Positions 36,210 to 44,137 of a stretch of DNA of 47,587 nt are shown here, in pieces. The stretch is taken from contig LBPF01000002.1 of the NCBI GenBank assembly GCA_000990005.1, forward strand, positions 1-47,587. Reading direction: 5' to 3'. This DNA comes from Candidatus Woesebacteria bacterium GW2011_GWB1_33_38 (lineage in GTDB: Bacteria > Patescibacteriota > Microgenomatia > UBA8517). Numbering within the stretch: position 1 is the first letter of the stretch; the number at the start of each line of letters is the position of its first letter. A program made the position numbers and the translations under genes. The notes under the pieces are model-generated. The model ran no database searches, had not been told where the DNA came from, and worked only from the letters and a program-made list of their open reading frames with translations.

Positions 36210-36908
36210 TCATAACTTTTGATATCTTGTTAGTATTATATCCGATAGAGTAACCATTTTGCTAATGAAGTGACTCATTTTTCTGACGTTAACACTTAAT
36301 TGACCAACGTAATCTAAATTTTCTTGCTGTTTAGCTACAATGTTATGTTTCCAACTTATTGCAAATTTATTTACATCAATGATCAATTTTTTAGACCAGA
36401 ATCTTTTTATCCTCTCTAAATCACTTTTTCTAATTTCATGAATATATAATCTGAACGACATATTTTCCTTTTTTGATAACCTGAAGTATTTTTCTAAAAA
36501 TTTTATATATAAGTTAATTAATCTAAAATCTGAATTTGAAAAGCCATTACTATAACTTTTGGTTCCTTCTGCTTCATAAAGCATAACTCCAGCAACAAAA
36601 AGGGGATCGTTGAAGTTGACTTTTTGCTCGCTTATAAAATTTTGAACATCCTCATCACGTCTTTTAAGTCTAGTAATTTTAGAGGCAAGAGTTCCTAGAA
36701 CGTGGTTTTGGACACGCTTTTTAAGTTGAATTTGCATGTGTTCCGGAGATAGATTTAGACCCGCGAATGTTATCCAACTATTTATTGTTGATTTTGCAAC
36801 ACCTGTTTCTTTGATTATTTCAGAATAACTATATCCTAGTTTTCTTAAAGTTATTACTTTTTGAAAAACATCTTTACTTTTACGTCTGACAGAGAAACGT
36901 GTGAGCAT
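36210..36908 (-). CDS. HTH protein with LAGLIDADG-like domain
   Basis: 232 aa. The N-terminal helix-turn-helix (FQKVITLRKLGYSYSEIIKETGVAKSTINSWI) is followed by a basic segment, then FVAGVMLYEAEGTKSYSNGFSNSDFRLINLYIKFLEKYFRLSK. The latter resembles one LAGLIDADG motif of homing endonucleases (G-x4-E-G) with its following 'sNsd..li..f..fl' helix. It could be a freestanding homing endonuclease derivative or a regulator that kept the fold. It is packed between tRNA-Gln and the tRNA-Lys promoter, a favoured mobile location. Function is not certain. Confidence 0.7.
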   Translation of the reverse strand: MLTRFSVRRKSKDVFQKVITLRKLGYSYSEIIKETGVAKSTINSWITFAGLNLSPEHMQIQLKKRVQNHVLGTLASKITRLKRRDEDVQNFISEQKVNFNDPLFVAGVMLYEAEGTKSYSNGFSNSDFRLINLYIKFLEKYFRLSKKENMSFRLYIHEIRKSDLERIKRFWSKKLIIDVNKFAISWKHNIVAKQQENLDYVGQLSVNVRKMSHFISKMVTLSDIILTRYQKL

Positions 36909-37067: not shown

Positions 37068-37129
37068 GGCCCCGTCGTCTACATGGAAACATGAGATGAT
37101 GATTTGTTAGCCAAAATGTTAATTTTGGC
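37068..37129 (+). other. tRNA-Glu-like 5' remnant and hairpin
   Basis: GGCCCCGTCGTCT (37068-37080) matches the first 13 nt of tRNA-Glu (37127-37139) with one difference, but the rest of a tRNA is missing. A perfect 8-bp hairpin, GCCAAAAT-GTTA-ATTTTGGC (37110-37129), then runs into the first bases of the intact tRNA-Glu. It looks like a partial tRNA duplication, as often left by integrative elements. Confidence 0.6.
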
Positions 37130-37197
37130 CCCATCGTCTATCGGTAGGACACGAGACTTTCATTCTCGGAGGCAGGGTCCGACTCCCTGTGGGGTCA
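37127..37197 (+). tRNA. tRNA-Glu (anticodon UUC)
   Basis: Acceptor GGCCCCA pairs with TGGGGTC (37190-37196), the anticodon stem-loop CGAGA-CTTTCAT-TCTCG gives UUC, and the T-arm is CAGGG-TCCGACT-CCCTG. Discriminator A at 37197; no encoded CCA. The last three bases, TCA, are part of the 12-bp direct repeat that bounds the integrative element. Confidence 0.95.
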
Positions 37198-38692
37198 CAC
37201 ATTGAGACAATTTTTCAGAATATGTGGCAGAATGGCGACTGCCACATATGAAATTGACCGTAGAATAGCCCAAATTGTAATTCATGGAGAGTTTTTGATC
37301 GGTTAGGAAAAAGTTCGAGCAGGCACTTCTAACAAAATCTGAAAGATTTTGGTATTCATTTTTCTCAGCAGCGATTTTTTGTGCCTGAAAGGCACTCATT
37401 ATGAAATGTTCTAGTGGTTCGAGCCAGTTGTTGCCATTAGTTTTAATTTTTTCTATTTTCTCTTGTAAATTAAGTTTAGTGTTAAACAACTCGTTCTTTT
37501 TAATTTTGTAATCTTCTTCATTAACAACACCGTCTAAGTATGTGTCTAACAACTTACTTAACTTAATTTCTGTTGTTTGTAGTTCTGTTTCAGTCAAAGC
37601 TGTGTTTTCCTCTGCTTTGACTGATTCTATTTGTTTATCCTTTTCTAATAACTCCAGCCACTTTTCTTTCCATCCTTCAGGTACAATCACTGAACGGACA
37701 TGTTTTCTTAATTGTTTGGCAAGATCAAACTCAGTTATATATTTTTGACTACACTTACCAAATTTTTTAGTACACCTGTAATATGTAAATGTCGGAGAGT
37801 TGCCATTTTTATATTTACGATGATGACTTTCGCCAGTAATAGCACCACCACATTCTCCACATCTTGCCAAACCAATGAAAGGAAAAGTATGGCCGTTATA
37901 CCTAGGTCGTTCAAACCTAGTAATTTGTTTTTGTGTTGCTTCAAAAAGTTGTTTTGAAATAATAGATTTATGAATTCCTTTATGCAGTTCTCCCTTGTAA
38001 TTCATTACTCCTAAATAAAACCTATTGGAAAGCATTTTTTTAATTGTAGTTGTATTTATTTTTCTACCAAGTCTAGTAGTTACTTTTAAGTTAAATAAAT
38101 ACTTTGAAATTGAAACAAAAGAATGCTTTCCTGTTGCAAACATTTCAAAACACTTTTTTATAATTTTACTTCTAACTGGATCAACTGCTATGGTCTTTGT
38201 AATTTTATCGTTTAAATATCCAAGTGGTGCTTCAACTGGCCAAATACCTAACCTAACTTTGTGTCTCATACCTCTTTTTACATTTTCACTTAAATTGTCT
38301 ACATAATATTTAGACTGTGAAAACGCCATACTGAGTACAAATTTACCCTGTGGTGAGTTCTCAAACCAAAATGAGGGGAATTTTAGATCAATCAATTTTC
38401 CAGTGTCCAATGAGTAAATAATCTTTCCACCATCAATACTATTTCTAGCCAAACGATCTGGGTGCCATGACACAATACCTTGAACTTCACCATTTTCTAT
38501 TCTTTCAAGGATTTTGTTAAACAGTGGCCTCCCAGTCGTTTTGGCTGTTCTGCTTTCGCAGACGAAATCTAAAATTTCCAAGTTTTGGTTTTTAGCAAAT
38601 TCTTTTAATTCTGCTATTTGCTGGTCAATGGAAAGAATTTGCTTTGTCTTTTCATCTGTACTTTTTCTGCAATATGCTATGTATTTAATCAT
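37160..38692 (-). CDS. Large serine recombinase
   Basis: 510 aa. The N-terminal resolvase domain starts KYIAYCRKSTDEKTKQILSIDQQ, with the catalytic Ser11 in YCRKS, and continues with GIVSWHPDRLARNSIDGG (catalytic Arg residues). The recombinase domain (GIWPVEAPLGYLNDKITKTIAVDP...) and a zinc ribbon (ARCGECGGAITGE...YRCTKKFGKCSQ) follow, then a coiled-coil segment. It catalyses integration and excision by double-strand cleavage with a phosphoserine link. The frame ends inside tRNA-Glu on the opposite strand, so the last ~12 residues (after SQCV) come from host DNA; in a circular form the frame would run on differently. Confidence 0.96.
   Translation of the reverse strand: MIKYIAYCRKSTDEKTKQILSIDQQIAELKEFAKNQNLEILDFVCESRTAKTTGRPLFNKILERIENGEVQGIVSWHPDRLARNSIDGGKIIYSLDTGKLIDLKFPSFWFENSPQGKFVLSMAFSQSKYYVDNLSENVKRGMRHKVRLGIWPVEAPLGYLNDKITKTIAVDPVRSKIIKKCFEMFATGKHSFVSISKYLFNLKVTTRLGRKINTTTIKKMLSNRFYLGVMNYKGELHKGIHKSIISKQLFEATQKQITRFERPRYNGHTFPFIGLARCGECGGAITGESHHRKYKNGNSPTFTYYRCTKKFGKCSQKYITEFDLAKQLRKHVRSVIVPEGWKEKWLELLEKDKQIESVKAEENTALTETELQTTEIKLSKLLDTYLDGVVNEEDYKIKKNELFNTKLNLQEKIEKIKTNGNNWLEPLEHFIMSAFQAQKIAAEKNEYQNLSDFVRSACSNFFLTDQKLSMNYNLGYSTVNFICGSRHSATYSEKLSQCVTPQGVGPCLRE
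37195..37206 (+). other. Left attachment site (attL)
   Basis: TCACACATTGAG starting in the last three bases of tRNA-Glu; an identical 12-mer lies at 42974-42985. It is the likely crossover region for the adjacent serine recombinase. Confidence 0.7.
37221..37278 (+). repeat. 58-nt imperfect inverted repeat, recombinase 3' side
   Basis: This stretch, within the recombinase 3' coding end, matches the reverse complement of 38782-38839 at 45 of 58 positions without gaps. It contains a perfect hairpin TATGTGGCAG/CTGCCACATA (37221-37230, 37239-37248) and the block CGTAGAATAGCC (37259-37270). Confidence 0.75.
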
Positions 38693-38781
38693 GTTTTTAA
38701 GTTGTTACAGAGCTTTGCTCTGAAAAATTTTTGCATTTTGATTTGTTTTCCTTTTCTCCGACCAACACCTGCAATTTTCAT

Positions 38782-38839
38782 ACAATTGTGGCTATTCTAC
38801 GCTGTTTTCTGTATGTGGCAGTCCCCACCCCGCCACATA
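38782..38839 (-). repeat. 58-nt imperfect inverted repeat, recombinase 5' side
   Basis: Inverted partner of 37221-37278 lying upstream of the recombinase start, with the same internal order: TATGTGGC/GCCACATA hairpin arms (38812-38819, 38832-38839), then GGCTATTCTACG (38790-38801). The two copies bracket the recombinase gene and are candidate recombinase-binding or accessory sites. Confidence 0.75.
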
Positions 38840-38860
38840 TTTATCTGAGAAATCTCTGAT

Positions 38861-38950
38861 TGTGAACTGTTACGAACAAATTCGAACCGAATTTCAAAGA
38901 ACTCGGAACACCTCGCTCACCGCTTCGCGGTTCGCTTAGCTCGGCCTTTG
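38861..38950 (+). repeat. 90-bp inverted repeat, left copy
   Basis: Exact reverse complement of 42889-42978 over all 90 bases. It starts TGTGAACTGTTACGAAC and ends GCTCGGCCTTTG. Internal hairpins include ACCGC-TTC-GCGGT and AAATTCG-type stems. Together the two copies enclose the cargo genes but not the recombinase. Confidence 0.95.
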
Positions 38951-39065
38951 TGTCTCGTTTTTTAACAAAGTGCCTGCCGAACTTCGTTTTGTTCTGTTCT
39001 TAAATCAAAATGCAAAAATTTTTAAAGTTCTGTCTGTCTTATAGTTTTTGTTCTCGTATTTTGAC

Positions 39066-39165
39066 AACTTAAATGGCCACTCTGGTGTAATCAACTCGGA
39101 TCTCTCCAAATCGTCCAAAGTGGCCATTAAAAAAGAGATCCTCAAAGTTGATTACAATTTAAGTT
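39066..39165 (+). other. Interleaved inverted repeats (possible pseudoknot or cruciform)
   Basis: Nested arms: AACTTAAAT (39066-39074) with ATTTAAGTT (39157-39165), TGTAATCAAC (39086-39095) with GTTGATTACA (39147-39156), and GGATCTCT (39098-39105) with AGAGATCC (39134-39141). AATGGCCACT (39072-39081) is complementary to AGTGGCCATT (39119-39128) inside the loop, which crosses the nested stems. It is non-coding and 76 nt before the AlbA_2 gene. Confidence 0.8.
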
Positions 39166-39217
39166 TACTTCTTGAAGAATGTTTTTCAACTATCAATAAT
39201 TAGTTGGTGATAGAAAG

Positions 39218-39240: not shown

Positions 39241-40458
39241 ATGTTTTTTAATAAACCAATCAAGGAAATAAAATTTAATGATGTACTAAGTTTTTGTGAA
39301 CTAAAAACAAAAGAAAATTTTGCACTTGATTACAAAGAGGAATTTCCAAAAAACCTAGAAAAAACTATTGCTAGTTTCGCAAATACATACGGAGGATTAA
39401 TTATTATTGGTGTTGAAGAAAATGACGGAAAACCAGTAGATAAGCCAAAAGGAATTAAGTGGGAACGAGGTTTAGAAGAAAGAGTTTATAGCATAACAAC
39501 AAGCAATATTACACCACCCATCTTTCCAGAGGTACAAGTTTGTGATCCTGTTAAAGATAAAACTTTTGTTATAATACAAATACCACAATCTACTAATACA
39601 CCACACGCCATTGAAAATAACACCAAAGTTTATTCGAGAACTGGGAATATCTCTACCCCAGAAGAATTAATTAATATTAATGAATTACATTGGCTTGCAA
39701 GACATAGAGAGAATGCTATCAACTTAAGGAATGAAATTATAAATTCGGTCAATGATCGATATTATTCATTGATTGAATACGGCAAAGTAAATATCGAATT
39801 TGGCGAATTAAATATGTATATTATTCCAGCATATCCAACTTATCTAAATGTTGACTTATTAAAATTAAAAAACGAAATAACTTCTTTAGAAGTAAATACA
39901 TTGGGGAATTCAGTATTTCCTTCATTCATGAATACGTCTATTAAAATAATGCAAAATGGACTATATCTTTTTATTCATAATAAAGGCGATCTTGGCGAAT
40001 TTACAGAATATACAGCATTTAACACAAGCGGTTTACTTTTCCATTCGCAAGACTTTGGTCGAATTAAGAAAGGTAACGATGATCTTCCAAAAAAGACAGT
40101 TTATTTATCACAAATAGTTGCACAATACTTTGATTTTTTACATTTCTATAAAAATTTTGCGAATCAAATTAATATTCATGGAGATTATAAAATTCATGTT
40201 GCCTTATTAAAGATGTTCAAGGTGCTTCCTGTGTACATTGGATATAATAACTTTTGGGGCGAAGATCCTGAACCATTTATGGATAAACGATATATTTACG
40301 ACAGAATACTTACAACTGAAGTTTTTAATAGCAAAGAAAGCATAATTAATGAAGTTGCTGATTTTGCAGTTGATTTACAATTAGGTCTAGGTTTTCCTTA
40401 TACAAAAGATCAAGCAATTAAATGGCTCGAAGAAAAATCACAAAATATAAATTTTTGA
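39241..40458 (+). CDS. AlbA_2 (Schlafen-type) domain protein
   Basis: 405 aa. Residues about 14-135 carry an AlbA_2/Schlafen ATP-binding-like domain: LDYKEEFPKNLEKTIASFANTYGGLIIIGVEENDGKP, then TFVIIQIPQSTNTPHAIENNTKVYSRTGNISTP. The remaining 270 residues are a long alpha/beta region with no recognised family (FINQINIHGDYKIH-type segments). AlbA_2 proteins include putative helicase-associated regulators and nuclease-like Schlafen proteins, and occur in defence and mobile loci. It is the first cargo gene, with its own promoter, and is followed 39 nt later by a smaller gene. Confidence 0.88.
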   Translation: MFFNKPIKEIKFNDVLSFCELKTKENFALDYKEEFPKNLEKTIASFANTYGGLIIIGVEENDGKPVDKPKGIKWERGLEERVYSITTSNITPPIFPEVQVCDPVKDKTFVIIQIPQSTNTPHAIENNTKVYSRTGNISTPEELININELHWLARHRENAINLRNEIINSVNDRYYSLIEYGKVNIEFGELNMYIIPAYPTYLNVDLLKLKNEITSLEVNTLGNSVFPSFMNTSIKIMQNGLYLFIHNKGDLGEFTEYTAFNTSGLLFHSQDFGRIKKGNDDLPKKTVYLSQIVAQYFDFLHFYKNFANQINIHGDYKIHVALLKMFKVLPVYIGYNNFWGEDPEPFMDKRYIYDRILTTEVFNSKESIINEVADFAVDLQLGLGFPYTKDQAIKWLEEKSQNINF

Positions 40459-40497
40459 CATATTGCTACAAGTGTATTTAATTGATATAGTAAATGT

Positions 40498-40836
40498 ATG
40501 GGTGAAGATCAAGTAACTGGAACAAATTCGACAATATCAATAAGCGTTTTGGCTGGCGAAACCATGAACAGTTTGTTGAATAGCTGGGTTGCAGAACTAG
40601 AAGTTCAAGACAAAGATAATTTACAAAACGAAGTAAATAATTTTGTAGAACTTATTAAAAAAATAACACCATTAGATATCGAAAACAAAAATATAAGCCA
40701 AGAGATAATTACATCAACTTCAAAGATATTGGCACAACTTACTAACGATCAAAAAGCCACAGATTCATTTTATAATACATTGAACTTATGTATTGTAGGT
40801 TTAGGAACAAGATTAAAATCTATTAACAATGAGTGA
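40498..40836 (+). CDS. Unknown cargo protein, 112 aa
   Basis: Acidic, helical protein (MGEDQVTGTNSTISISVLAGETMNSLLNSWVAELEVQDKDN...) without membrane segment or recognised motif. It overlaps the J-domain gene by 8 nt, so the two are probably coupled. Helix-rich stretches (LQNEVNNFVELIKKITPLDIENKNISQEIITSTSKILAQL) suggest a bundle or adaptor. A TA-like or J-protein co-factor role is possible but unsupported. Confidence 0.75.
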   Translation: MGEDQVTGTNSTISISVLAGETMNSLLNSWVAELEVQDKDNLQNEVNNFVELIKKITPLDIENKNISQEIITSTSKILAQLTNDQKATDSFYNTLNLCIVGLGTRLKSINNE

Positions 40837-41713
40837 AACACCACCACAAGTACCAACAGAGAAAGTACAACCACAAAAAAAAGAGTTGTATAAATTACCA
40901 CCAGAGCGAAGAAGGCTTGAGGCTGTACGAAAAGTTCATGAGATGAGAATAGTAAATGTAGGAAATAGAGGTGAGGAACCATGGCCAATAGAACTACGTG
41001 GTTACCAAGAACATGCAGTAGCACTTTTAGATCTTGTCTACAAGAATTCAAAACCTGACTCTGTAGGAGTAATTATCAATGGTAGTATGACTGCAGATCC
41101 AGAGTTAGCAAAAAAAATAAGAGAGCATAAAGGTTTACTTGCCGTTCATGGGGGAAATAGAGAAACAACGGTATTGAATATTGAGGAAAAACAAGGCGGC
41201 GAGTATGTTTGTAAATTTGGACATTCAGCTAAGGGTTCTAGTTTAGATAGAGCGCCTAATGGCAGTGTTAGTGTAAATGTTAATAATGATCCAAATGCTA
41301 TCACCGATGAAAGTTTATTTAAATTATATAAATTGATTGGGAAGGTTGATTTTGTTGAAAGTCTCGGAATTAGAGCAGAACTTCGCGGTAGCGGTGCAGC
41401 ACGAGCCAATTCTAAACCAATTGATCCTGAAGGACATTACTCATCGTTAGGGTTAAACCCATATGCACTGAGGTTTTTAGACGAACAATATTTCAACACT
41501 CTCGTTTCTGGAATGAAAAGAGAAGTTGCAAGAAAGTTACATCCTGATTCTGGAAATACAGCTACGGAAGAGGAAACAGAATATTTAAGAAAAATGTTAA
41601 AAGCATGCGATGTACTAGAGAAACCTGATAAACGGAAAGCATATTCAAGTTGGCTTAATTCAGGAAATGGCGAAGCAAAACAATCTCCAAAAGAAGAATG
41701 GAAAGAAATATAA
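40829..41713 (+). CDS. J-domain protein with novel N-terminal domain
   Basis: 294 aa. The last 85 residues form a J-domain: YSSLGLNPYALRFLDEQYFNTL, the hallmark HPD at residues 238-240 (RKLHPDSG), and ACDVLEKPDKRKAYSSWL. The N-terminal ~200 residues are not recognised. They contain a basic helical lead (PPERRRLEAVRKVHEM) and an alpha/beta core (VGVIINGSMTADPELAKKIREHKGLLAVHGG; LGIRAELRGSGAARANSK). A J-domain normally recruits and stimulates a DnaK chaperone; no DnaK is encoded on the element, so a host chaperone would be used. Confidence 0.85.
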   Translation: MSETPPQVPTEKVQPQKKELYKLPPERRRLEAVRKVHEMRIVNVGNRGEEPWPIELRGYQEHAVALLDLVYKNSKPDSVGVIINGSMTADPELAKKIREHKGLLAVHGGNRETTVLNIEEKQGGEYVCKFGHSAKGSSLDRAPNGSVSVNVNNDPNAITDESLFKLYKLIGKVDFVESLGIRAELRGSGAARANSKPIDPEGHYSSLGLNPYALRFLDEQYFNTLVSGMKREVARKLHPDSGNTATEEETEYLRKMLKACDVLEKPDKRKAYSSWLNSGNGEAKQSPKEEWKEI

Positions 41714-41717
41714 TTAT

Positions 41718-42395
41718 TTAAGTTAATCTAGTGAGAACTTTTTGATGTCTTGCGCCTCTATAGATTGGCATTTTTAATTCCTTAGCCATTTTATTATTCA
41801 TTTCAGCAGCTTCAATTCCCAATCGATGTCTTTGTATTCGTTCACCATGATTTTTTGCTAATGCTAGCATGTAACCTCTTGAAATTTCTCTTGCTCCCAA
41901 AAGATTTGGTGTTTCTTTACTTTTAAATGCAAAATAATAATATTCTGGATCAACTAATCCTTCAAAAAAATGTCCATAGTCTTTTTGAACAAGAGGTATC
42001 AAATCTTCTGTGTTAAATGGTGCAACCACGGGGTGTTTGTGAATAACGCCAACCATTACTTCGGGTGCTGTAACTATTCCCTGTGTTGCCACATGATCTT
42101 TTGACCCTTGAGTATTTACAGTTTGAACTAGCAATTTTTGTCTTTTACCATCCGTCTTAATAATTCGACCATTTTCTTCAGGGTGTGTAAACATAAATTC
42201 GACATCACCTCGTTCTATTTTTGATTGATGGAATACCCCTTCCATAACTTGCATCCATGTTTCATTAAGTACAATTTTGTCAGGAAAGTTAATTTCTGCT
42301 TCAAGTTTCTTTTGTGCAGATTTTAAGAGCATATCTTTTGTTTGCTCAATAGTCCATTCTGTCTTTGATCCTTTTTCTTCTCCGCCTAATGACAT
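41718..42395 (-). CDS. Possible JAMM/MPN-like protein
   Basis: 225 aa on the strand opposite to the other cargo, convergent with the J-domain gene (4-nt gap). VMVGVIHKHPVVAPFNTEDLIPLV (His119, His121, Asp131) resembles the JAMM zinc motif H-x-H-x7-S-x2-D, but the Ser position is Thr and the spacing to Asp is one residue short. An upstream Glu (VMEGVFHQ or RGDVEFMF) could complete the site. If real it would be a metalloprotease or deubiquitinase-like enzyme. The C-terminal helical region (GYMLALAKNHGERIQRHRLGIEAAEMNNKMAKEL) is unassigned. Alternative: an unrelated hydrolase. Confidence 0.7.
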   Translation of the reverse strand: MSLGGEEKGSKTEWTIEQTKDMLLKSAQKKLEAEINFPDKIVLNETWMQVMEGVFHQSKIERGDVEFMFTHPEENGRIIKTDGKRQKLLVQTVNTQGSKDHVATQGIVTAPEVMVGVIHKHPVVAPFNTEDLIPLVQKDYGHFFEGLVDPEYYYFAFKSKETPNLLGAREISRGYMLALAKNHGERIQRHRLGIEAAEMNNKMAKELKMPIYRGARHQKVLTRLT

Positions 42396-42888: not shown

Positions 42889-42978
42889 CAAAGGCCGAGC
42901 TAAGCGAACCGCGAAGCGGTGAGCGAGGTGTTCCGAGTTCTTTGAAATTCGGTTCGAATTTGTTCGTAACAGTTCACA
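42889..42978 (-). repeat. 90-bp inverted repeat, right copy
   Basis: Exact inverted partner of 38861-38950, ending 7 nt before the end of the right attachment repeat and overlapping its first five bases. It contains ACCGC-GAA-GCGGT-type hairpins. Perfect identity over 90 bp in a drifting AT-rich genome suggests recent duplication or ongoing gene conversion. Confidence 0.95.
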
Positions 42979-42985
42979 CATTGAG
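42974..42985 (+). other. Right attachment site (attR)
   Basis: Second copy of TCACACATTGAG, overlapping the end of the right 90-bp repeat and followed by chromosomal-type sequence (CTTTTTTAATTAG). Confidence 0.7.
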
Positions 42986-43027: not shown

Positions 43028-43531
43028 GTGAATAAAAACATTTTTAATTCTAATCCCGACATATATTTAAATTACGGCTATTTAATGCTCCCAATTAGTC
43101 TAAATATAGTTTCAAAAATAAAAATTGGAACCAAAACATTTTATTCTAAAAATGGATACCATATTAGTTTGCTTTGTCTCGAAGAATTTTCAGAATCTGA
43201 TCAAAAGAAGGTTCTAAACTTTGCTCAAAAATATCCAGTAAAGCTTAAAAAAATATCCAAGATTTATCGGTTAGTAACGCAAGAAAACCAACAGTCAATA
43301 ATCGTTCGTGTACATCTTTATGAATTGAAGAGATTGATTTTTGCTTTTAATAAACATTTTGGTTACAACTTTACTTATCCACCAACCCATATAACCTTGT
43401 TTACCTTAAAAGATCAATATGGCATTGCTGTCAATTCAACCGAAGAATACCGTCGGCTTACCCGTCAAATTATTCAGAAGGATTGTCAAAGACTAGCCAA
43501 GTCTTTCAAACTTATTAGATTTGCAATTTAA
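43028..43531 (+). CDS. 2H-phosphoesterase-like protein
   Basis: 167 aa from GTG 43028. Two H-x-S/T-x motifs, YHISLL (His45) and THITLF (His121), are spaced as in the 2H phosphoesterase/LigT-like superfamily, whose members cleave cyclic or 2'-5' phosphodiesters in RNA or nucleotides. The rest of the sequence (GYLMLPISLNIVSKIKIG; EYRRLTRQIIQKDCQRLAKSF) fits an alpha/beta fold. It is the first chromosomal gene beyond the integrative element, so its native promoter may have been separated from it by the insertion. Confidence 0.75.
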   Translation: MNKNIFNSNPDIYLNYGYLMLPISLNIVSKIKIGTKTFYSKNGYHISLLCLEEFSESDQKKVLNFAQKYPVKLKKISKIYRLVTQENQQSIIVRVHLYELKRLIFAFNKHFGYNFTYPPTHITLFTLKDQYGIAVNSTEEYRRLTRQIIQKDCQRLAKSFKLIRFAI

Positions 43532-43555: not shown

Positions 43556-44137
43556 ATGACAAGTTCTTTACAGGAACCACCTTTAGTTGATGTTAAAGTT
43601 ACAAACCCTGTTACATATCTTCGCCTTTGGTGGGATAGGGTAATGGGGAAGGAGGGAGTTTATTTTAGTTTTAGAATTCACCCAATTACAGCATTTTTAA
43701 TTGCTTTTGGATTTGCCACTGCTTTTATTGGTGTTGGCAGATATTCAATAAATATCCCATTTTTAAAATATCAAGTTTTACCAACAATTAAACCCACAAC
43801 CTCAGCGGAAGTTATCTGGAAAGAAACTGCCTTTACCGGTAAATTGCAACTTTCATTAACCACTAATAAATATTTTTTAATCACCACATCTTCTGAAGCA
43901 ATCACTTTGGATGTTCCAAGTAACTTAGATCTAATTACTTTAGTAGGGAAAAGAATCTTTGCAATTGGCCAATACAATAAAACAGAAAGATTTCTTAAGG
44001 TTTTTGATATTAAAGATTTAGAAGTCTTACCTAGGACACCAGTGCCTATCCCAACTATTGAAGCGATAGGTACGCCAGTTGCTGAAATTAACTCTAGCGC
44101 AATTCCAATACCTACTGATACAATAGAAACACAATGA
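43556..44137 (+). CDS. Single-span membrane protein with extracytoplasmic domain
   Basis: 193 aa: cytoplasmic N-terminus (about 45 residues with LRLWWDRVMGKEGVYFSFRIHP), one membrane span (ITAFLIAFGFATAFIGVG), and an outside domain with OB-like strands (EVIWKETAFTGKLQLSLTTNKYFLITTSSEAITLDVPSN). A Pro/Thr-rich tail (RTPVPIPTIEAIGTPVAE...) follows. No named family. It overlaps the next anchored protein gene by 4 nt, suggesting a two-gene envelope unit. Confidence 0.75.
   Translation: MTSSLQEPPLVDVKVTNPVTYLRLWWDRVMGKEGVYFSFRIHPITAFLIAFGFATAFIGVGRYSINIPFLKYQVLPTIKPTTSAEVIWKETAFTGKLQLSLTTNKYFLITTSSEAITLDVPSNLDLITLVGKRIFAIGQYNKTERFLKVFDIKDLEVLPRTPVPIPTIEAIGTPVAEINSSAIPIPTDTIETQ

Follow-up and report, generated by a model that had tools for sequence, protein, structure and literature searches.

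A serine recombinase gene that ends inside tRNA-Glu

We analysed a stretch of 47,587 nucleotides (hereafter the window) which forms contig 2 (LBPF01000002.1) of the 845-kb genome of Candidatus Woesebacteria bacterium GW2011_GWB1_33_38. The window carries a 5.8-kb integrative element of a patescibacterium that targets transfer RNA (tRNA) genes, and our subject is the large serine recombinase of this element. Its open reading frame (ORF) lacks a stop codon of its own: the frame crosses a 12-bp attachment (att) repeat and terminates within the tRNA-Glu gene on the opposite strand. The features of the element and its junctions are listed below.

37127..37198, + strand: tRNA-Glu(TTC), the integration target (ARAGORN)
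37160..38692, - strand: large serine recombinase ORF, 510 amino acids in the integrated form, with Pfam Resolvase, Recombinase and Zn_ribbon_recom domains (translation)
37160..37198, - strand: host-derived chimeric tail codons inside tRNA-Glu, antisense (VTPQGVGPCLRE, then stop; translation and overlap with the tRNA)
37195..37206, unstranded: attL core, 12-bp direct repeat TCACACATTGAG, spaced 5779 bp from its partner
37219..37279, - strand: a half (inverted repeat IRa), the recombinase 3' coding end with a hairpin; inverted partner at 38781-38841, 79% over 61 nt
38781..38841, + strand: a' half (IRa'), which repeats the recombinase 3' end in inverted orientation and precedes the recombinase start; protein-level match at 38748-38855
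38861..38950, + strand: b half (IRb), contiguous with a' and together with it a second inverted attP (attP2); in frame it reads NCYEQIRTEFQRTRNTSLTASRFA, then stop
42889..42985, - strand: b' half (IRb') at the right element end, which would supply the native tail in the circle
42974..42985, unstranded: attR core, 12-bp direct repeat identical to 37195-37206

From its N-terminus onwards the recombinase has a resolvase domain, a Recombinase domain and a zinc ribbon, all with Pfam matches above cut-off. The catalytic Y-x-R-x-S and DRLARN motifs are hallmarks of large serine recombinases; both are present, and the residues Y7, R9, S11, D79, R80, L81, A82, R83 and N84 are invariant in 42 sequences. 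In its integrated form the ORF ends in ...SEKLSQCVTPQGVGPCLRE before the stop, with 39 of its bases (stop counted) falling within tRNA-Glu. When both 12-bp repeats were joined in silico, as excision would join them, the tail of the recombinase became SQCVNCYEQIRTEF...; the full frame across the joined repeats reads SQCVNCYEQIRTEFQRTRNTSLTASRFA up to a stop, and the circle form thus ends in ...SEKLSQCVNCYEQIRTEFQRTRNTSLTASRFA. The initial annotation had placed the end of the frame (ORF 37160-38692, -) beyond the att repeat, in the opposite-strand tRNA-Glu (37127-37198, +), and had predicted an alternative frame upon joining of the repeats. The coordinates bear out the former and, for the latter, every letter checked agrees. 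Its statement that the frame in the circle would read on through the 90-bp repeat needs amending: the frame does continue there after joining, but the 90-bp repeat is an inverted pair rather than the att repeat.

Indeed, b and b' (38861-38950 and 42889-42985) are 100% alike over 90 nt in inverted orientation, which rules out this repeat as an att direct repeat, and the right-hand copy alone touches the att core. The exact direct repeat TCACACATTGAG occurs within the window only at 37195 and 42974. Positions 38781-38950, which lie upstream of the recombinase start, repeat the entire junction in inverted orientation (the 3' end of the recombinase together with the 90-bp arm), and this attP2 reads ...SEKSLIVNCYEQIRTEFQRTRNTSLTASRFA and a stop in the recombinase frame. 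The order of the element is consequently tRNA.a - recombinase - a'.b - cargo - b'.host, with a/a' and b/b' as inverted pairs.

Empty site, crossover position and related elements

For a same-genus comparison we used the sister species Candidatus Woesebacteria GWB1_33_22. Since the ORF at 43028-43531, tried as a synteny marker, was found only in the window's own genome among the 50 searched, tRNA-Glu itself served as the anchor. In the sister genome tRNA-Lys and tRNA-Glu are followed, after about 100 bp, by a gene starting MATSNIEPPLVDVKVTNP (translation by eye), which matches the start of the window ORF 43556-44137 (MTSSLQEPPLVDVKVTNP), located beyond the element. The element is absent there, and this arrangement identifies it as an insertion after tRNA-Glu. 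The sister genome has the same element arrangement in two contig ends (a and a' are 100% alike over 100 nt); its recombinase there runs into a likely methyltransferase gene, a name read from the translation, and not into a tRNA.

A scan of GTDB species genomes yielded 80 loci, 9 of which are cut at a contig edge; the remaining 71 were counted. By record title nearly all are Patescibacteria, and the few others (e.g. Desulfobacterales, Omnitrophota) may be transfers or binning errors. A tRNA of one of 12 kinds lies on the opposite strand at the recombinase 3' end in 59 of the 71 loci. Among these 59, the ORF stops inside the tRNA in 31, beyond it in 25 and before it in 3, so that the frame runs into the tRNA in 56 of the 71 non-edge loci; in 55 of these 56 the tail extends 10 to 279 bases into or past the tRNA, and in one it extends 2311. 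Likewise, 15 matches were examined in the two genomes of the genus, and each of the seven intact recombinases that neighbours a tRNA terminates within that tRNA. Homologues that stop ahead of the att site are therefore not the rule, and the claim of the initial annotation that integration changes the tail of the enzyme is strongly supported across many related elements. Its interpretation as a whole, which takes in a possible built-in switch between integrated and excised forms, is supported in part.

The 12 loci without a called tRNA at the recombinase 3' end are of several kinds. L085, L098 and L114 carry the native motif described below themselves, the L045 recombinase reads into a likely transfer-messenger RNA (tmRNA) 3' end, and L083 and L088 have probable tRNAs missed by ARAGORN, these last three being sequence readings; the recombinase ends of L056 and L061 are hidden by N bases or a contig end. 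At the recombinase ends of L036, L042, L074 and L096 no tRNA was found. The inverted a' copy, i.e. a second attP, is present in 58 of 71 loci with an ORF end, and the a/a' and b/b' pairs are often 95-100% alike. Of the 13 loci without a', 6 have less than 150 nt of upstream sequence; no inverted a' copy was detected in L035, an 81% relative. The reverse order, with the tRNA by the recombinase start and the native tail kept, is clear only once, in L085, where tRNA-Trp lies upstream and the ORF itself ends in the native tail CAFEKIRTEFAKN before its stop. A scan of viral_contigs for a phage origin returned 3 loci only.

In a separate sample, 77 of 286 Patescibacteria genomes matched a C-terminal query. 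Matches of the 100-residue query, which ends in the native tail, to recombinase C-termini mostly broke off near residue 80, and the tail alone matched separate short pieces, several of them on the opposite strand of the same contig. Two near-full matches to this query were inspected; both are chimeric.

The crossover was located by means of three-way junctions, that is, 27 loci that have an attL, an internal attP and an attR. A clean common core of 4-11 bp lies at the tRNA 3' end in 23 of the 27 (L042, among these 23, has no called tRNA); 23 of 26 shared cores were used, L051, L098 and L114 being misregistered, and L056 contains N bases. In the window the three-way core is TGTG (TGTGA by eye), while attL and attR share 12 bp. 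A search of the other elements for direct repeats of at least 10 bp gave none that was convincing besides the window's, their cores being shorter. These junctions place the crossover at the tRNA 3' end and not elsewhere; together with the empty site in the sister genome, they show that the arrangement is not due to chance.

Several further features of these loci were recorded. Close to the element end, the recombinase coding sequence contains a hairpin (window 37219-37279, the same place in relatives); its sequence varies among subfamilies, but inspection by eye suggests that several of those examined have one. In L114 (4465-13539) the recombinase module, flanked on either side by native motifs, sits between two cargo modules whose b arms differ and form inverted pairs of 175 nt (100%) and about 115 nt (79%); the cargo modules may be exchangeable. 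In L023 (4224-4297, G000:C13) 21 nt from the 5' part of tRNA-Pro recur at a distance of 53 bp, which may be the scar of an earlier insertion. In two elements, perfect inverted repeats bracket the internal attP at about 250 bp:

window 38723-38744 and 39002-39023: perfect inverted repeat pair, 22 nt
L020 9390-9419 and 9650-9679: perfect inverted repeat pair, 30 nt

The native tail and its T-arm motif

We next consider the peptide which the circle form would encode. Scoring for the motif [FYL]xK[IVC]RTxF, with the looser search pattern [IVCLA]R[TSG]x[FYML], covered the 54 of 62 a'-containing rows whose b is 44 nt or longer. The motif (FEKIRTxF type, then stop) is found in the recombinase frame in 50 of the 54 and never solely in another frame; the four misses are L071, L098 (where it lies inside the a' alignment), the divergent element PRO, and ALA. 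Counted from the first codon of the motif, most scored elements reach a stop within 8-17 codons. When 45 distinct motifs were compared, single-base codon differences were synonymous in a share of 0.55 in frame versus 0.21 and 0.05 in the shifted frames. Outside the IRT (TTCGAAC) codons this share is 0.36 as compared with 0.13 expected without selection, and for the last Phe of the motif it is 0.90 as compared with 0.11. The conservation in frame, together with the excess of synonymous variation, indicates that a real peptide is replaced on integration: judged from sequence, the lost attP half encodes a conserved coding peptide which is absent from integrated copies.

The tail codons appear to have a second role. 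On the recombinase strand, the tRNA T-arm motif TTCGAAC follows the core at a distance of about 13 bp; in b, where this motif falls within the K-I-R-T codons (AAA ATT CGA ACN), the distance is about 17-18 bp. In 32 of 35 scorable cases (of 47 rows) the motif is farther from the crossover in attP than in the tRNA, by 5 bp in 21 and by 4 bp in 11. In large serine integrases the distance between crossover and zinc-domain motif is about 5 bp greater in attP than in attB, an offset reportedly described by Rutherford in 2013, and the 4-5 bp seen here are what is expected of such enzymes. The tail codons would thus double as a mimic of the T-arm, and a recombinase family that reads the T-arm could by this means use many tRNA genes.

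Proposed mechanism, rival explanations and precedents

The mechanism we favour builds on what the alignments give directly, namely the crossover place, the two reading frames, the conservation and coding constraint of the native tail, the second inverted attP and the empty site. In the circle, the recombinase gene would be complete and end in the conserved peptide x[FYL]xKIRTxF and a stop, encoded by one attP half-site. Integration at a tRNA 3' end by attP1 would remove this half-site and join the frame to antisense tRNA, leaving a random tail. The native tail may be needed for full activity, most likely for attP x attB integration; its loss would lower or change the activity of the enzyme, stabilise the insertion and keep the chromosomal second attP from recombining with other tRNA genes. 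We consider it probable that a gene lying across attP in this manner exchanges its native tail for an antisense-tRNA tail with a consequence for activity. As to direction, the integrated state may be the inactive one. The orientation bias, nearly all integrated copies being chimeric, fits such a lock; the use of a single attP, leader loss or read-through from the tRNA could also account for it.

Several points weigh against this mechanism. PRO and ALA lack the standard motif, which was itself defined after inspection of the data, and the sequence pairs in the synonymous test are non-independent. The spacer between the last conserved domain and the motif has 17 lengths, and by an ungapped measure 39 of the 45 cases, not all, are divisible by 3. 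The motif overlaps the likely DNA recognition element TTCGAAC, and part of its conservation is thus at the DNA level. AlphaFold gives the tail as a low-confidence helix (predicted local distance difference test, pLDDT, 47-49), which we did not use as evidence. Finally, according to the available text on Myxococcus phage Mx8, its altered integrase retains activity, so that inactivation need not follow (PMC6070905).

A more elaborate version, which we hold only tentatively, is that the element disables itself: two inverted attPs flank the recombinase, only the circle has the whole gene, each insertion breaks one end, and the KIRT codons, as a T-arm mimic, let one family reach many tRNA targets. 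The circular gene would then have a leader in front and the conserved tail behind; integration by one attP would remove the tail and by the other the leader. The candidate leader is a conserved pseudoknotted element between b and the first cargo gene:

39066..39167, unstranded: conserved pseudoknotted structured element (covariation; model R1, 102.4 bits)

It comprises about 100 nt with two crossing helices and 24 pairs, 15 of which show changes on both sides, and 95.8% of cells are paired versus 75.6% when shuffled. The model gave 22 matches at E of about 1e-5 or better in 92 sources and no Rfam match at the gathering score. Of the 47 family genomes, 20 have the element, and in many cases it closely precedes the start of a serine recombinase; for distant recombinases (e.g. 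in G035, G023, G005, G009 and G049) it lies 16-32 nt upstream of the matched start. It could act as a leader RNA or form an RNA of its own. In the window type the pseudoknot lies outside a'.b, and reverse integration would therefore separate it from the recombinase gene; L071 and L107 have it inside and adjacent to the gene, so that the loss of a leader does not hold for all elements.

It is less likely that the overlap is passive, the att site simply lying in a dispensable 3' end of the gene, with both tails tolerated and no effect on the enzyme. The integrated tails do vary freely in length, the conserved domain ends before them, and the KIRT codons hold a DNA motif common to tRNA T-arms. 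A conserved coding tail is, however, not what neutral overlap would predict: the synonymous bias is strong outside the DNA motif, a stop follows soon after, and the frame is kept in 50 of 54 elements across the 17 spacer lengths. We regard as unlikely an invertible cassette, in which the recombinase module would flip between tRNA.a and a'.b and restore the native tail without excision. The frequent near-identity of the inverted pairs and the flipped order of L085 would suit it, but this order is rare, since only 3 of 71 ORFs are native-tailed (L085, L098, L114) and the tRNA is upstream in L085 only. Without help, serine integrases are not usually known to join sites paired in this way.

More doubtful still is a switch in the reverse sense, whereby the enzyme made from the circle would be held in check by its native tail, and the tRNA-tailed enzyme would be the one able to excise or invert. 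By the available account, the Mx8 integrase with a replaced 3' end changes its specificity rather than dying (PMC6070905); random antisense-tRNA tails are, however, improbable sources of a shared new activity, and the near-universal chimerism of integrated copies suggests that this form is the stable state. An assembly or annotation artefact, conceivable in metagenome-assembled genomes where inverted repeats can mislead assemblers, was rejected as very improbable because the layout recurs at many tRNAs in dozens of independent genomes with consistent junctions, two records titled complete genomes included (L076, CP055307; L114, AP024682).

Partial precedents exist for the proposed tail exchange. 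The integrase of phage Mx8 is a tyrosine recombinase. In Mx8 (IntP) and Mx9, attP lies in the integrase gene and integration creates a new 3' end, called a molecular switch in the available text (PMC6070905). The present gene likewise has attP within its coding sequence and acquires a new 3' end; it differs in being, by its Pfam domains, a serine and not a tyrosine recombinase, in using many different tRNAs and in its conserved native tail. The element thus works like Mx8 without being a member of that family. For the idea of a function confined to the circle, the precedent is Dehalococcoides DsiB, a CcrB-like serine recombinase which runs into a host RNA gene, has the tmRNA gene ssrA as its single target and a partner, DsiA, and which its authors, in the accessible part of their report, suggest is perhaps fully functional only on the circle (PMC3146451). 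Unlike in the DsiB islands, the target here is tRNA-Glu, with 12 tRNA types among relatives and a tmRNA-like end only in L045, and the four cargo ORFs include no companion small serine recombinase. Compared with the available texts on Mx8 (PMC6070905) and DsiB (PMC3146451), what is new here is the conserved native tail, the second inverted attP and the T-arm offset, none of which they report.

The A118 and SPbeta integrases share the domain order and fold family of the present enzyme, with solved relatives found; here, in contrast, the gene crosses its own attP and targets tRNAs. Integration of the SSV type splits the integrase gene, which belongs to a different recombinase class. These archaeal integrase genes extend across attP, as far as the accessible text goes (PMC4383910), and the available part of Islander 2014 knows only tyrosine integrases to target tRNA or tmRNA genes. 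In the literature searched, which took in only a minority of subscription papers and no preprints, we found no account of this type of patescibacterial element.

With these elements, a curiosity of Mx8 that was suspected for DsiB becomes a testable rule for a recombinase family across Patescibacteria, with a defined lost peptide, a defined crossover and a defined way for one family to use many tRNA genes. If the tail controls activity, these would be self-locking one-way integrases, useful for genome engineering. The annotated C-termini of these recombinases are antisense tRNA, which calls for caution in annotation.

The rest of the element is cargo:

39241..42395, unstranded: Schlafen AlbA_2-domain protein, 112-residue ORF, protein with a weak DnaJ-like end, and 225-residue ORF of no known family

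Among the four cargo ORFs there was no Resolvase match of the kind a DsiA-like companion would give. A lone PADLOC match, DndD to the 112-residue ORF (E 0.0025), was judged due to chance, and known defence cargo was not retained. Outside the element, near tRNA-Gln and tRNA-Lys, a 232-residue ORF (window 36210-36908) has only weak helix-turn-helix matches and is possibly an intron-type endonuclease or another mobile gene.
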